Part shown: piece by piece, positions 9,955 to 49,832 of the stretch
How the letters are laid out: each line of letters opens with the position of its first letter
Numbering within the stretch: the first letter of the stretch is position 1
Assembly: GCF_001262015.1 (NCBI RefSeq)
Contig: NZ_CP012074.1
Location: 516,501 to 580,500, forward strand
Direction: 5' to 3'
Length of the DNA: 64,000 nucleotides
From: Prevotella fusca JCM 17724
Lineage (GTDB): Bacteria > Bacteroidota > Bacteroidia > Bacteroidales > Bacteroidaceae
Notes under the pieces: model-generated
Told to the model about the DNA's origin: nothing
What the model saw: the letters and a program-made list of their open reading frames with translations, nothing else
Databases searched by the model: none
Translations under genes and position numbers: made by a program

Positions 9955-11139
9955 ATGACAAAAGAAGACTTATTACTATGGGGAGAAAAGACGGTTCAGC
10001 TATATAATAAGATAGCAGACGACCGTGGTAGGGAAAATACTCCTGCATTCTATACTCAATCTGATTTAAACAAAATGATAGGAGTAGATTCTGTTGATAT
10101 TTTAATAGCGGGTATTAACCCAGGGTCTGGTGGTACTTACCAGCAAATGATTGAGAATCCAAATTGGGGAATAAGCTCAGCTACGGGGATGACAGCAGAA
10201 CAACTAATATCAGGGAACTTCGGTAGAGACCCTCTGCATGAGAACTGTACAAGCTGGAGTCGTCATCGCACTTGGCCTTATTTTATGAGATTAAAGAGCT
10301 ACTTTAAGGATATAGAGGGACCTAATATTCTTGATGATGAAAGTAGATTTGTCTTGACAAATGCTACTTTCTTCAACACTGTTAAAGAGAAAGAATTGGA
10401 CCAATCACTGTTAAAGGCAACGTTCCCACAGACAATAGATTTAGTCAGAAGAGTTAAGCCCAAGATGATAGTCTGGTTAAGTGGAAGAAAGGTATTTAAC
10501 AGATTGGTCTCTATCTCAATAGATGGCTTTTCTTTTGTGTGCGTTAAAAAACATAACCCGATAATGGCGCATATATATATGGGCACATTTAATGGAATAC
10601 CATGCTTTGGTGTTCCCCATCCTTCTGCACCCCTAACAACAGAAGAAAGAACTCTAATCGCTAAATTCTTTTCTTATGTTTATAATTATAAAAGTATTGA
10701 AGAGATTGATCTTAATGGTTTGGAGTCTTTCTGTATAAATGAAATCCAAGCATATCATAAACGTTTAAATGGGAAGAAAGCTGTTTCTGTAAAAAGCAAT
10801 ATTCATATAAAAAATATAGAACAATCTATCCTCGAAAAGAAAAAAAGCTATATTTACAATAATGGAAATAGGATACGCAAAGATGAAAATGCCCAATATG
10901 GAATTACAATCGCTAATGGTTGTATTTTTGTTCGTCAAGCTTATGAAGATAAGCATAAGGAACCTCAAATAAATCCTAATGATGGCGTTGTCATAGAGAA
11001 ACTAAAAGGAAAAGGGTATAAAAGCAGGGATAAATGGCTTGGTTTTCGGAAACTTACGGACTTTGGTAGCACTGAGGAGGAAATAGAACAGAATGTTATA
11101 AAAGAGATTGATGACCTATTTGAGCTATTGGATGTTTAA
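9955..11139 (+). CDS. Uracil-DNA-glycosylase-superfamily protein with a C-terminal extension
   Basis: 394 residues from ATG 9955 (MTKEDLLLWG). The N-terminal ~240 residues show the two signature loops of the uracil-DNA glycosylase superfamily. Motif A is GINPG (residues 53-57), as in the MUG/TDG branch; motif B is HPS (222-224, in GVPHPSAPL). The Asn of GINPG is the catalytic position in MUG. An additional ~150 residues (about 245-394) form a Lys-rich linker and then a mixed domain (YGITIANGCIFV, KWLGFRKLTDFG) that I do not recognise. Most glycosylases of this superfamily lack such a tail. The gene is much more AT-rich than its neighbours (14 G/C in 10681-10740, for example), suggesting acquisition. 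It lies 14 bp before a partner gene. Base-excision activity is likely; repair versus anti-phage use is open. Confidence 0.7.
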   Translation: MTKEDLLLWGEKTVQLYNKIADDRGRENTPAFYTQSDLNKMIGVDSVDILIAGINPGSGGTYQQMIENPNWGISSATGMTAEQLISGNFGRDPLHENCTSWSRHRTWPYFMRLKSYFKDIEGPNILDDESRFVLTNATFFNTVKEKELDQSLLKATFPQTIDLVRRVKPKMIVWLSGRKVFNRLVSISIDGFSFVCVKKHNPIMAHIYMGTFNGIPCFGVPHPSAPLTTEERTLIAKFFSYVYNYKSIEEIDLNGLESFCINEIQAYHKRLNGKKAVSVKSNIHIKNIEQSILEKKKSYIYNNGNRIRKDENAQYGITIANGCIFVRQAYEDKHKEPQINPNDGVVIEKLKGKGYKSRDKWLGFRKLTDFGSTEEEIEQNVIKEIDDLFELLDV

Positions 11140-11153
11140 TTTATACTATTGTT

Positions 11154-11807
11154 ATGGAAGAAGTTTTCTTGTTGTCTGTAAGACTAATATCTACCGATAA
11201 GGAAAGTGAACAAATTGTAGAGAGACTTAAACTTGATGGAATATCTTGTTCGGAGGATGCCGACACTGTTCTTTTGAGTATAGTCTTAGTGTCTTCAGAG
11301 GATAGCTTGAAGTATCTTGATGTGTCTTCATTGGTTCAAGATCATAGACAGAAATTGGTTCTTCTCCAGACTTCTGGAGTGTTCGATGTTGGTGAACAGC
11401 ATTTTTTCAATGCAATACTCTCGTTTCATCAGAATGATGATGCTTACAGTCAAATAAAGTCTTTCTTATATTGTTCTTATAATTTTATTGAGTTTCATTC
11501 GTTAATATCTGTTGATTTCTGTGATTTTTATTCCATTATAAATGGACGAAATATAATCTCTATGCAGCGATATGTTTATGCAACAGACGTAGAAGAGGCT
11601 TTGTCTCAATTGAAGTACGATAGTACCAACAAGCAGGATAAGTATATTTATGCTATCAGGGGAGCACAAAGTATAGAAGAGGAAGGAAGACTGTTGAAAG
11701 CATTTGCCAAGCATATATCAGCAAAACTATGTAGTGATGATTTCAGATTTAACATTGTATCTGGAGGAACAAGACAAGTCGTGTTACTGACAGCAACTCC
11801 TTATTGA
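11154..11807 (+). CDS. Protein resembling an FtsZ/tubulin C-terminal domain, no GTPase motif
   Basis: 217 residues, soluble, AT-rich like its partner 14 bp upstream. From about residue 105 onward it follows the FtsZ pattern after the core helix: a helix, then HSLISVDFCDFYSII (compare GLINLDFADV in FtsZ), then a regular helix, a YIYAIRGAQSIEEEG strand-helix unit, and a final FRFNIVSGGTRQVVLLTAT strand (compare RVTVVATG). The FtsZ GTP-binding loop (GGGGTGTG) is absent, and the first ~100 residues are too short for a full Rossmann GTPase domain. This is a distant resemblance judged by eye. A role as a non-hydrolysing partner or sensor for the glycosylase-like protein is inference from the tight operon only. 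Confidence 0.55.
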   Translation: MEEVFLLSVRLISTDKESEQIVERLKLDGISCSEDADTVLLSIVLVSSEDSLKYLDVSSLVQDHRQKLVLLQTSGVFDVGEQHFFNAILSFHQNDDAYSQIKSFLYCSYNFIEFHSLISVDFCDFYSIINGRNIISMQRYVYATDVEEALSQLKYDSTNKQDKYIYAIRGAQSIEEEGRLLKAFAKHISAKLCSDDFRFNIVSGGTRQVVLLTATPY

Positions 11808-12145
11808 TTAATAATAAATGGTGTCCAGTAAAACAAATGGAAAGTTTTACATGTCCTTGTTTGTTGATAATACAGGCACATTTAGCCAGTGAGGGTTTAC
11901 TTTTTGTTTTAAACAGTAATCGTTACTGAAAATCATTATTAGAGTGACTTTTAGCTGATAGTTCAGAGAGTAATACTACAGCTGATACCTTTATAGGTCT
12001 TCTTTGTTGTAACAAATTGGAGCAGAAAAGTTCTGTTAGATATTGCATAATACAAAGTAAACCCTTTTCTTTTTGATTTATGTTCGTCATTCCTTTGCAG
12101 ACTGAAATAAAAGCATTAATTTTGTAGGCATAAAAAGAAAAGCAA
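11808..12145. other. Intergenic region with a promoter at its right end
   Basis: 338 bp following the AT-rich pair. Apart from the promoter at 12094-12124, I found no gene. A GGTGTCC-GTAAAAC-like string near 11820 faintly resembles the end of the dispersed element, but no second end or core is present. Confidence 0.4.
12094..12124 (+). promoter_or_regulatory. Promoter for the nucleotidyltransferase-guaA operon
   Basis: TTTG at 12094-12097, 19 bp, TAATTTTG at 12117-12124. The start codon is at 12146, so the leader is about 15 bases. Confidence 0.7.
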
Positions 12146-12952
12146 ATGCAGGCAATGATTTTTGCAGCCGGACTCGGTACACGTTTGAAACCACTTACTG
12201 ACACAATGCCAAAAGCATTGGTAAGGGTGGGAGGTGCGCCACTACTTGAGCATGTTGTCAGAAGGTTGATAGATGCTGGATGCAGTCGTATGGTTGTCAA
12301 TGTGCATCATTTTGCTGACCAGATAACAGACTATTTGGATGCGCACAACTATGGAGTGGATATCCATGTGTCTGATGAAACAGAGCAGCTCCTTGATACT
12401 GGTGGTGGTATCAAGCGAGCTGCTTCGCTTTTTGATCAGCATCAGCCAGTGCTGATTCATAATGTTGACATATTAAGTAATGTGGATTTGGCTGCCTTCT
12501 ATCGTCATTCTCAGGAGGCAAAGGCTGATGCTATGCTGCTGGTAAGCCGTCGGATTACCCAGCGCTACTTAGTGTTTGACAGCAATATGCGCTTAGTAGG
12601 TTGGACGAATGTGGATACAGGTGAGGTGAAGTCGCCTCATGCCGAGATACGTCAGCTGCATTTTGTTTCGCCAACAGAGGAAGATAGTTCTTATTATCAG
12701 AACAACTGCTACCTCTGTGCCTTCTCAGGTATTCACGTACTGGCATCCTCTGCGGTGCAGGCTGTTGAAGCTGTTGATGCGGAGAAGTTCCCGATTATGG
12801 ACTTCTATCTCAACAATTGCGACAGACTTGATATCCGTGGAGAACTGAAAACCGACCTTCATCTGCTTGATGTAGGCAAACTTGACAGCTTGCAAGCTGC
12901 TGAAGACTTTATAGCAAATTCAGAGTATCGAAACTCCAAGACGGAGAACTGA
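12146..12952 (+). CDS. Sugar-1-phosphate nucleotidyltransferase, MurU-like
   Basis: 268 residues. The N-terminal signature MIFAAGLGTRLKPLTD...MPKALVRVGG is the nucleotide-binding loop of the NTP_transferase family. NVDIL at about residue 110 gives the metal-binding Asp. The closest function I can suggest is MurU, which activates N-acetylmuramate-1-phosphate with UTP in cell-wall recycling. Mannose-1-phosphate guanylyltransferase is the main alternative. In MurU systems the AmgK kinase gene is often adjacent, but here the upstream neighbour is the AT-rich insert, and no kinase is visible. It is followed 24 bp later by guaA, so the two are likely co-transcribed. Cytosolic. Confidence 0.8.
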   Translation: MQAMIFAAGLGTRLKPLTDTMPKALVRVGGAPLLEHVVRRLIDAGCSRMVVNVHHFADQITDYLDAHNYGVDIHVSDETEQLLDTGGGIKRAASLFDQHQPVLIHNVDILSNVDLAAFYRHSQEAKADAMLLVSRRITQRYLVFDSNMRLVGWTNVDTGEVKSPHAEIRQLHFVSPTEEDSSYYQNNCYLCAFSGIHVLASSAVQAVEAVDAEKFPIMDFYLNNCDRLDIRGELKTDLHLLDVGKLDSLQAAEDFIANSEYRNSKTEN

Positions 12953-48402: not shown

Positions 48403-49832
48403 AGTCGTTCCTTAAAAAGCCCATTTTGTCGAAAAGTCAACCAAAACTGACTTTTCGATGATAGTTTTTGTAAAGCACAAAAGAGCTCTCATAGCTCTTC
48501 TGAAGTTATATGCTGCAGCTGCCAGCATTATATTCATAGCATCCCCTTTCACACCTTTATAAAAGTTGCGAGATAATCTGTAATCACTTTTAAGATGTCC
48601 TATGGTAGGCTCTATTCCTGCCCGCTTGCAAAACAGTTTGTGTTTCTTTTTCTTTTGATAGTAACTATCTTTGTCTTTAGGGGCTTGTGGTATGAGTATT
48701 TTTGTTGTTCCAACCAGATCTGTTCCTCTATATCCTCTGTCTCCTGCCAAGTTATCAATGCGCTTGCCTGTCATTCTTTCGGTTTGTTGTAAGGATGCTT
48801 CTATGGTATGCCCATCATATTCATTCCTAAAAGAAACGGCAGCAAGAATAATTCCTGATAGCGAACGGATAAAGGAAGCTTTGTTGCCAAACTCATACTT
48901 CTTATGTTCCTTACCCTTACTGATGCATTGTACTTCAGGCTCGTGAAGAGAATATATCTTATTACGACTGTTACGTTTTTGAGAAAGGACCTTATAGAAG
49001 AGCTCAAACATCTTTTCATAGCCTTTCCTGTCAGGAAGATTACGGTCAGGTTCTCTGACCAAACGACCGGCTATGGTGCGCAGACTCCGGTCAGCCTTGA
49101 CAGCCTTCCTGTGACTCCTGGGGTGATTGCGAAAACGTTGGTTGCGAGAGATTGCTTTCAGTGTCCTTTGGTAGCTCTGACGTAAAGGAAGTTTCTTCTC
49201 ACGAACGATTTTGAGCACTCGATTGATTATCTTTTTATGCAACTTCGCATCCGTTGGGTAAGTGATATTCTTCTCCTGTACCGTAGAATCTATAAAAGCT
49301 GTGTTAAAATGATCCTCATTATCATTCTCAGTATTGACACGGATGCTCTCAGCAAGAATGACTTCAATTCCTTCTTCGCCTATACGATTGCGGAAGTGAA
49401 CCAAATCAGAAGCTTCGCAAGGTTCTTTAGGAAGAAACTCCAGTTGACCACAGAAATACTGATAATAAGCATTTTCACTCCACTGTAAAACAACACTTTC
49501 GTCAGAGATATTACGCAAGTGTTTCAAGATTAAAAGTCCGCACATCAAACGAATAGGATGCGCAGGGCGACCATTTGTACTACAATACAAACGAGAGAAG
49601 GAGTCTTCAAATCTACGCCAGTTGATTTTATTACCAAGCGTATAAAGGGGGTGATTGTGATTGAGCATATCCTCTAAGGAAGAGAATAATGATAATTGAT
49701 TAGAGGTCCTTTTTAACATATATTTCTGCAAGTTTTATACTGTAAAGGTACAAAAACTTGCAGAAATATACAAATAAATAGAGAGATAATTAACTGTAAA
49801 TCAGTATAATATAATGTATTTAAGGAACGACT
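48403..49832 (-). mobile_element. IS5-family insertion sequence, complete
   Basis: 1430 bp with terminal inverted repeats AGTCGTTCCTTAAA (left 48403-48416, right in reverse 49832-49819), and a 4-bp target duplication AAAT on both sides (48399-48402 and 49833-49836). It contains one intact transposase gene whose stop codon lies inside the left inverted repeat. Intact ends and ORF suggest a recent insertion. The target is a copy of a dispersed repeat. Confidence 0.9.
48412..49731 (-). CDS. IS5-family DDE transposase
   Basis: 439 residues. The N-terminal domain (LYTLGNKINWRRFEDSF, RPAHPIRLMCGLLILKHLRNISDE) is the DUF772-type region, followed by the catalytic DDE core: FIDSTV, then LAGDRGYRGTDL, and the C-terminal acidic residue in the RAGIEPTIGHLKSDYRL box. 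This is the pattern of the IS5 group. No frameshift. Long basic insertion between the first two acidic residues (RNHPRSHRKAVKADR). Cytosolic; mobilises only its own element. Confidence 0.93.
   Translation of the reverse strand: MQKYMLKRTSNQLSLFSSLEDMLNHNHPLYTLGNKINWRRFEDSFSRLYCSTNGRPAHPIRLMCGLLILKHLRNISDESVVLQWSENAYYQYFCGQLEFLPKEPCEASDLVHFRNRIGEEGIEVILAESIRVNTENDNEDHFNTAFIDSTVQEKNITYPTDAKLHKKIINRVLKIVREKKLPLRQSYQRTLKAISRNQRFRNHPRSHRKAVKADRSLRTIAGRLVREPDRNLPDRKGYEKMFELFYKVLSQKRNSRNKIYSLHEPEVQCISKGKEHKKYEFGNKASFIRSLSGIILAAVSFRNEYDGHTIEASLQQTERMTGKRIDNLAGDRGYRGTDLVGTTKILIPQAPKDKDSYYQKKKKHKLFCKRAGIEPTIGHLKSDYRLSRNFYKGVKGDAMNIMLAAAAYNFRRAMRALLCFTKTIIEKSVLVDFSTKWAF

Follow-up and report, generated by a model that had tools for sequence, protein, structure and literature searches.

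The closest described counterparts of the gene pair examined here are defence glycosylases and proteins that resemble FtsZ or respond to it. Brig1 cuts alpha-glucosyl-hydroxymethylcytosine, and Brig3, which comes from a two-gene operon, cuts 5-hydroxymethylcytosine (PMC11078745, PMC13160076; these and the other papers are cited from excerpts). The defence protein CapRel is triggered by a complex of FtsZ with Gp0.4 of phage T7, and Gp0.4 is predicted to bind the part of FtsZ that SulA and MciZ also bind, the C-terminal region containing the T7 (synergy) loop (PMC13423816). The pair, P1-P2, lies in a 64,000-base stretch of the Prevotella fusca JCM 17724 genome (contig NZ_CP012074.1, positions 516,501 to 580,500), which is called the window below. 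P1 encodes a predicted DNA glycosylase of the uracil-DNA glycosylase (UDG) superfamily, and P2 encodes a protein related in sequence to FtsZ that has no GTP-binding loop. Relatives of both are tied to deoxyribosyltransferase-type genes, an association that, as read from sequence, is new here.

P1 is like Brig1 and Brig3-BapA in its UDG-superfamily fold and in being an accessory gene, and Brig3 likewise comes first in its operon; the likeness is one of fold and motifs. The partners differ, as BapA is described in the excerpt as a glucosyl hydrolase while the partner of P1 is an FtsZ relative. FtsZl1 and FtsZl2, like P2, are divergent FtsZ relatives found beside an ordinary FtsZ (PMC2875224). 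However, the excerpted text has them recognised by their GTPase domain, with FtsZl1 having no recognisable T6-H7 and C-terminal domain, and P2 is the reverse. P2 does not fall within the FtsZl1/FtsZl2 group, having no recognisable tubulin-type GTPase domain. CapRel-Ebc provides defence by sensing what state FtsZ is in when phages attack, and the FtsZ region bound by Gp0.4 is the region that P2 keeps; in CapRel-Ebc, as far as the excerpt goes, the sensor is the host FtsZ itself with no encoded FtsZ fragment, and the effector is a toxSAS-type toxin (PMC13423816). No module of a DNA glycosylase and an FtsZ fragment was found in the literature, among the matches listed from open-licence papers.

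The two proteins of the pair

P1 is a UDG-superfamily member by sequence family, modelled fold and motifs, and base excision is its predicted activity. The Pfam UDG family (PF03167) is matched by eight of nine P1-family members at E<=1, with a best E-value of 4.7e-7; the window's own P1 is the one without a match, and its relative in HJM029 gives E 6.5e-4, below the curated cut-off. The P1 family profile finds UDG 4zbx among PDB sequences (E 0.0014). An AlphaFold2 model of P1 (predicted local distance difference test, pLDDT, 62.7) resembles UDG-superfamily structures, the top matches being family 4 uracil-DNA glycosylases, TDG/MUG and SMUG1 (4zby, 3ufj, 1mug, 5h98), with 11-17% identity in the structural alignments shown. 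We take GINPG to be motif 1 of the superfamily and the histidine of HPS to be the catalytic residue of motif 2. Both are conserved (Table 1), and the residues that follow the histidine differ among relatives (HPS, HPA or HTA). In addition to its low identity, P1 differs from family 4 UDG, TDG/MUG and SMUG1 in having an extra C-terminal domain of about 144 residues. This domain matches no PDB sequence at E-values up to 5, and in Pfam it has scattered single-member lines only (best E 0.017).

P2 is, by profile comparison, an FtsZ relative with the T7-loop and C-terminal half and without the GTP-binding loop. When the P2 family profile is aligned with 30 FtsZ sequences, hhalign gives 95.6% (E 1.3e-8), with 10 column shuffles at or below 0.74%. 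An earlier comparison with 12 FtsZ sequences gave 93.4%, against 0.29% for the reversed profile and at most 1.02% in 12 shuffles. P2 has about half the length of FtsZ, and the stretch of FtsZ that it matches is the T7 loop and the C-terminal half. The aligned part begins past the GGGTGTG loop, which is missing in all eight family members, and P2 is for this reason not filed as FtsZ; a true FtsZ is present separately. The kinship is also seen in the reverse direction. A hidden Markov model (HMM) of the C-terminal part of FtsZ, run over 648 open reading frames (ORFs) from other loci and the window, puts eight P2 proteins and three proteins called CGSTRF here in ranks 1-11, with the next ORF at E 0.76; the window's P2 is at rank 10 (E 0.14). 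The order is less clean with the full-length FtsZ HMM, where P2 relatives occupy ranks 1-6, CGSTRF proteins ranks 7-8 and the window's P2 rank 9 (E 1.9), and the P2 relative of locus L012 is not among the matches listed.

The distribution of FtsZ matches hints that P2 arose from the FtsZ of its own bacterial family. With the P2 family profile, 19 of the 299 genus genomes have matches; seven of these have full-length relatives (eight copies) and the other 12 have partial matches, which are FtsZ in every case. Partial matches occur in 51 of 126 family genomes (best E 2.2e-9), and the 18 loci opened are all FtsZ; the 33 left unopened include the place in the P. fusca genome itself (E 6.5e-6). At about E 1e-6 or better, the eight-sequence P2 profile matches FtsZ in 10 of the 126 family genomes and in none of the 198 order or 296 phylum genomes, and the hint of an own-family origin comes from this difference.

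Fusions and gene clusters in relatives

Fusions and gene clusters in relatives support a link between the parts of the putative module. In genome G003, a deoxyribosyltransferase domain (PF05014, E 3.1e-13) and a P2 relative, 50% identical to P2, are joined in that order in one polypeptide. A P1-family gene lies 1.1 kb from this fusion on the same strand, along with two small genes that are also on that strand. Its membership in the P1 family is given by hhalign (98.6%, E 5.7e-16; five shuffles at or below 0.42%). Proteins named DNPH1 on Apilactobacillus plasmids share 47% identity with the PF05014 domain of this fusion, and a protein named nucleoside 2-deoxyribosyltransferase in Segatella copri shares 57%. 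P1 relatives have PF05014 genes next to them in two more genomes: in G267 the two genes overlap at the end of the P1 relative, and in G225 the PF05014 gene lies upstream at a distance of about 0.5 kb, separated by a single small ORF. By eye, two more kinds of gene are common to the G003 cluster (L035:11178-12152) and the P1 island of G298 (L044:7572-9006): one codes for a short repeat protein, the other for a membrane protein whose tail is similar.

PF05014 is rare in these genomes. Among the 13 genomes in which P1 or P2 has relatives there are four matches at E<=0.001, and the three above the cut-off are the G003, G267 and G225 loci; the fourth, in G298, is below the cut-off and on a contig other than that of the P1 relative. 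Under random placement, each PF05014 match would fall within 1 kb at about one in a thousand by our own estimate, which is softened by the clustering of such genes in islands. PF05014 is not beside the window's pair, and the P. fusca genome has no match at E<=0.001.

A second type of protein is also joined to P1 relatives. The P1 relative of G298 is preceded by a CGSTRF protein at a distance of 16 bases and that of G253 by one at 21 bases, and in G261 a CGSTRF-type protein is fused to a P1-type UDG in a chain of 664 residues. The three CGSTRF proteins are 84% alike and therefore represent few independent events. Their last ~110 residues are FtsZ-C-like, and the G298 protein carries the T7-type string HGLISIDYHDIKEL. 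Residues 166-278 of the G261 protein match positions 6-117 in the FtsZ-C model at E 4.3e-4 when this protein is searched alone. The G261 protein is thus probably a three-part chain, deoxyribosyltransferase-like, FtsZ-C and UDG, with FtsZ-C in the middle. The first ~105 residues are a widespread domain, found in 101 plasmid records, 10 phage records and 23 viral contigs. The matches listed mostly end at ~105, one on a Deinococcus wulumuqiensis plasmid record extends over residues 6-245, and a plasmid of Prevotella sp. E2-28 has the N-terminal domain as a separate short gene. The domain is named deoxyribosyltransferase-like only, because the name comes from the label 'deoxyribosyltransferase' on a relative in one phage record, Anabaena phage A-1(L), and kinship to PF05014 was not found by hhalign (1.2%, shuffles at or below 0.48%), in Pfam or in PDB sequences.

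Nine P1 loci were compared: the window's own, HJM029, MT837679, G225, G253, G267, G298, G282 and G261. Five have a deoxyribosyltransferase-type domain adjacent, near or fused, and four do not. The control was a set of 27 loci chosen solely for their deoxyribosyltransferase-type domains; it contained no P1-type or FtsZ-C-type ORF at E<=0.5. Two neighbours that looked UDG-like by eye were not counted. One, in G250, is a 276-residue ORF (L040:5415-6242) that lies upstream of the P2 relative at a distance of 74 bases; its hhalign value is 0.69%, versus 0.83% for the best of five shuffles, and Pfam UDG gives E 0.043 and 0.028 only. The other is a 254-residue neighbour in G225 (hhalign 1.0%, shuffles at or below 0.79%).

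Distribution and genomic setting

P1 and P2 are accessory genes with a patchy distribution in the genus. P2 relatives occur in seven of 299 genus genomes and P1 relatives in nine, two of which have single-domain forms. Smaller samples that counted the P. fusca genome gave four of 100 for P2 and two of 100 for P1. G003, on the P2 list, also has its P1-family gene, which is too distant for the genus-wide P1 search. At E<=1e-6, the 296 phylum genomes have P1 and P2 in the P. fusca genome only, and in the 198 order genomes P2 is again confined to that genome and P1 is found there and in G651. Outside the genus, P1 has a relative in a 7.9-kb faecal 'Bacteriophage sp.' record (unverified; 30%) and in one viral contig (26%). 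Plasmids yielded nothing for P1 or P2, phages nothing for P2, and viral contigs searched with each single protein nothing for either. On viral contig L049 (2212-2742), a P1 relative is followed by a phospholipase-D/nuclease-like ORF and, further on, by a terminase-like ORF, both assigned by eye. DUF6557-type genes recur near P1 relatives (L007:9290-10255, L008:5210-6214, L031 and L033); the one in L007 is confirmed by Pfam and the others were recognised by eye.

The two genes are on the same strand, P2 downstream, with 14 bases between them (Table 1). P1 has an alternative start at TTG 9814 that would give a longer protein; ATG 9955 was taken because a relative in HJM029, 83% identical, starts at that position. 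The G+C content is 35.5% for P1, 35.2% for P2 and 35.2% for the pair, compared with 43.3% for the window. In windows of 1853 bases at steps of 50, excluding overlap with the pair, none of the 1169 others is as low, and the next lowest is 36.6%. The preliminary description of this DNA, made from its letters, had proposed two tightly packed AT-rich genes, the first a UDG-superfamily protein with GINPG and HPS motifs and an extra C-terminal domain and the second an FtsZ C-terminal pattern without a GTP-binding loop, and had considered them accessory. All of this is borne out, the first protein through Pfam by way of its relatives, 4zbx and the structural model, and the second on sequence profiles. 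The same description had named universal, syntenic occurrence in related genomes as an outcome that speaks against it, and such occurrence is excluded.

Table 1. Coordinates of features at the P1-P2 locus (window numbering)
Feature	Position	Strand	Basis
Terminator-like hairpin between the peroxidase-type gene and P1	9701..9735	+	15 pairs, then a T-rich tail
P1, UDG-superfamily protein, 394 residues	9955..11139	+	ORF, ATG 9955 to stop 11139
P1 motif 1, GINPG (residues 53-57)	10111..10125	+	Kept in 9/9 aligned P1 relatives
P1 motif 2, HPS (residues 222-224)	10618..10626	+	His kept in 9/9 aligned relatives
P1 C-terminal domain, no assigned family (residues about 251-394)	10705..11136	+	Common to L007, L008, L028 and L030; pLDDT mostly 70-88
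P2, FtsZ-related protein without GTP-binding loop, 217 residues	11154..11807	+	ORF; FtsZ profile matches
P2 part aligned with FtsZ (residues 49-204)	11298..11765	+	hhalign against 30 FtsZ
P2 T7-loop region (residues 112-131, HSLISVDFCDFYSII)	11487..11546	+	Asp121 in 8/8 members, residue 124 acidic in 7/8
Homology edge against relatives without the pair	12078..12145	none	BLAST; G003 match from 12078, G026 match from 12092

The pair sits at a variable site. It is preceded by a peroxidase-type gene and followed by a nucleotidyltransferase-type gene and then guaA; these names come from the sequence and the preliminary description, with no family search behind them. The hairpin upstream of P1 is a weak feature, because one was found and 1.1 are expected in shuffled sequence. 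Downstream, the nucleotidyltransferase gene (12146-12949) is found in 51 of 60 genus genomes, and the window's homology with G003 and G026 stops 68 and 54 bases short of it, with no BLAST match of the window to either genome upstream of that edge. Thirty nucleotidyltransferase loci were fetched and seven were read as ORFs. A kinase-like ORF is immediately upstream of the gene in four of the seven (G003, G026, G017 and G052; loci L051, L052, L054 and L055), and the other three were not classified. A tblastn search of the 64-kb window with the G003 kinase found no match. P1-P2 thus stands where four of the seven relatives read have a kinase gene, which together with the homology edge marks the site as variable. 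Repeats near the pair do not mark out clear insertion ends. Elsewhere in the window, a 435-residue ORF at 48415-49719 resembles an insertion sequence transposase by eye and is in a stretch of lower G+C content at 48-52 kb.

Defence and competing explanations

A defence role is likely from the neighbours of the relatives, on evidence that is circumstantial. Catalogued defence-candidate genes are found beside several of them. In the P1-type islands of G225, G298 and MT837679, PADLOC models are matched by a WYL regulator (WYL) and a DEDDh exonuclease (PDC-S48), and G261, which was outside the PADLOC scan, has look-alikes of both. WYL regulators are reported alongside defence islands (PMC9122601, from an excerpt). 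In G045 a PDC-S26 protein (E 1e-83) lies 25 bases from the P2 relative, and in G199 the P2 relative has an SMEK_N-type protein (E 1.5e-6) about 70 bases away. G290 has two P2 relatives about 5 kb apart (L039:6538-7191 and L039:12441-13133), and close to the second is a peroxidase-type gene like the one upstream of P1.

The best explanation, held tentatively and given somewhat less than an even chance, is that P1-P2 is an accessory, DNA-targeting module of defence type in which an FtsZ remnant acts as bait or adaptor. The pair would be the two-gene form of a module made of a UDG-fold DNA glycosylase and a GTPase-less, FtsZ-derived T7-loop/C-terminal domain, to which relatives would add a deoxyribosyltransferase-type domain. 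P1 would take particular bases out of DNA, possibly that of a phage, and so leave abasic sites. P2, in contact with P1, would present the FtsZ region that is bound by division inhibitors, those of phages included, and would thereby link P1 with an attack upon the machinery of division. A bait role would be natural for P2 because it keeps the side of FtsZ that Gp0.4 is predicted to bind in the manner of SulA and MciZ. A narrower version, which we think rather improbable, likens P2 to the integrated decoys in immune receptors of plants. The FtsZ piece would be reduced to the face seized by inhibitors and be placed with, or fused to, glycosylase and deoxyribosyltransferase-type effectors, and a phage protein that grabs P2 would release the glycosylase on DNA.

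Several results weigh against the bait-or-adaptor explanation. P1 and P2 proper occur together in only one of the 299 genus genomes, the window's own, and HJM029, which has the nearest P1 relative, is without a P2 relative in the 17 kb fetched. About 0.2 genomes with both would be expected by chance and one was seen, so that co-occurrence at the genome level says little. In PADLOC, P1 has no match, P2 has only RT_III-A at E 0.015, which like weak RVT_1 lines is taken as chance, and the three window neighbours scanned have no match. In the regions read around the P2 relative of G024 and the two of G290, no neighbour was recognised as acting on DNA. Pfam FtsZ is matched by none of the eight P2 members, and the P2 family profile finds no FtsZ among PDB sequences, where Cas10 (E 1) and ferritin (E 7.1) are chance lines. 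As a single sequence P2 matches nothing in Pfam or NCBIfam and has only a chance line at E 1.7 in PDB sequences. Structures of both proteins were predicted, and the single-sequence model of P2 is poor (pLDDT 37.5); the kinship to FtsZ rests on sequence profiles because the fold could not be modelled. Residue 124 of the T7 region is non-acidic in one of the eight members, and conservation of that region (0.41) is little above the family mean (0.37) and below that of the N-terminal 48 residues (0.47). The FtsZ-C stretch of the G261 protein has E 0.28 among the 648 ORFs, and the FtsZ-C part of the G261, G298 and G253 proteins reaches 4% in hhalign (10 shuffles at or below 1.14%). The missing Pfam match in all eight members and the missing NCBIfam match of P2 also make the P2 family look like an uncatalogued branch of FtsZ relatives, one that keeps the part FtsZl1 lacks.

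The solitary occurrence of the exact pair would be accounted for if P1 and P2 were unrelated cargo brought together by chance in a hot spot. P1 travels as a unit the size of one gene and has another neighbour in HJM029, and the islands of P1 and P2 relatives contain many small accessory genes. This is unlikely, however, in view of the 14-base gap on one strand, the G003 cluster and G261 fusion, and the empty deoxyribosyltransferase-only control loci. The suggestion in the preliminary description that the pair forms a module is supported as far as the linkage of its parts in relatives goes; these exact two genes were seen together in one genome only. Its further proposals, that the pair could excise modified or uracil-containing phage DNA and that the FtsZ-like protein could act as a regulator or as a decoy for division, are conjecture. 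The profile searches it proposed with UDG and FtsZ models gave the UDG family for most relatives and FtsZ through family profiles, but no direct Pfam match for the window's P1 or P2, and the proximity to defence genes that it looked for is found at relatives but not among the scanned neighbours in the window.

Two other functions can be considered for a linked pair. In DNA and nucleotide-pool repair, P1 would remove a damaged base, the deoxyribosyltransferase-type partners would clean the pool and P2 would be a scaffold, with no phage involved. The UDG family of P1 and the resemblance of the G003 domain to DNPH1 and nucleoside 2-deoxyribosyltransferase agree with this, and Brig1 and Brig3 are held by the Brig3 authors, in the excerpt, to derive from repair enzymes (PMC13160076). 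A repair function of this kind is nevertheless a doubtful fit to patchy, AT-rich genes with defence-candidate neighbours at relatives, and 12 of 13 genomes searched have UDG-family genes elsewhere that score better than the P1 relatives, two of them in the P. fusca genome. P2 may instead be an effector, a natural capper of FtsZ filaments that stops division while P1 acts on DNA, comparable to the coupling of arrest to DNA damage by SulA. The synergy loop of FtsZ enters the nucleotide pocket of its neighbour (PMC13423816, excerpt), so the T7-loop face of P2 could dock on real FtsZ, and the filament could not continue from a protein with no GTP pocket. This competes with a bait because the same face of P2 meets the next FtsZ in a filament, and it agrees with the retention of that half without GGGTGTG. 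We consider a capper quite improbable, as residue 124 varies among P2 members and the enzyme fusions of G003 and G261 are more in keeping with an adaptor than with a capper that acts freely.

Work on defence glycosylases is recent, and few of them are described. If one of them is linked to an FtsZ fragment that has no GTPase, attack on DNA would be connected with the state of the division machinery, and the guarding of FtsZ by bacteria against phage inhibitors would become testable with two small proteins. If the decoy version is true, P1-P2 would be the first defence module built on a fragment of FtsZ, as far as the searches showed.

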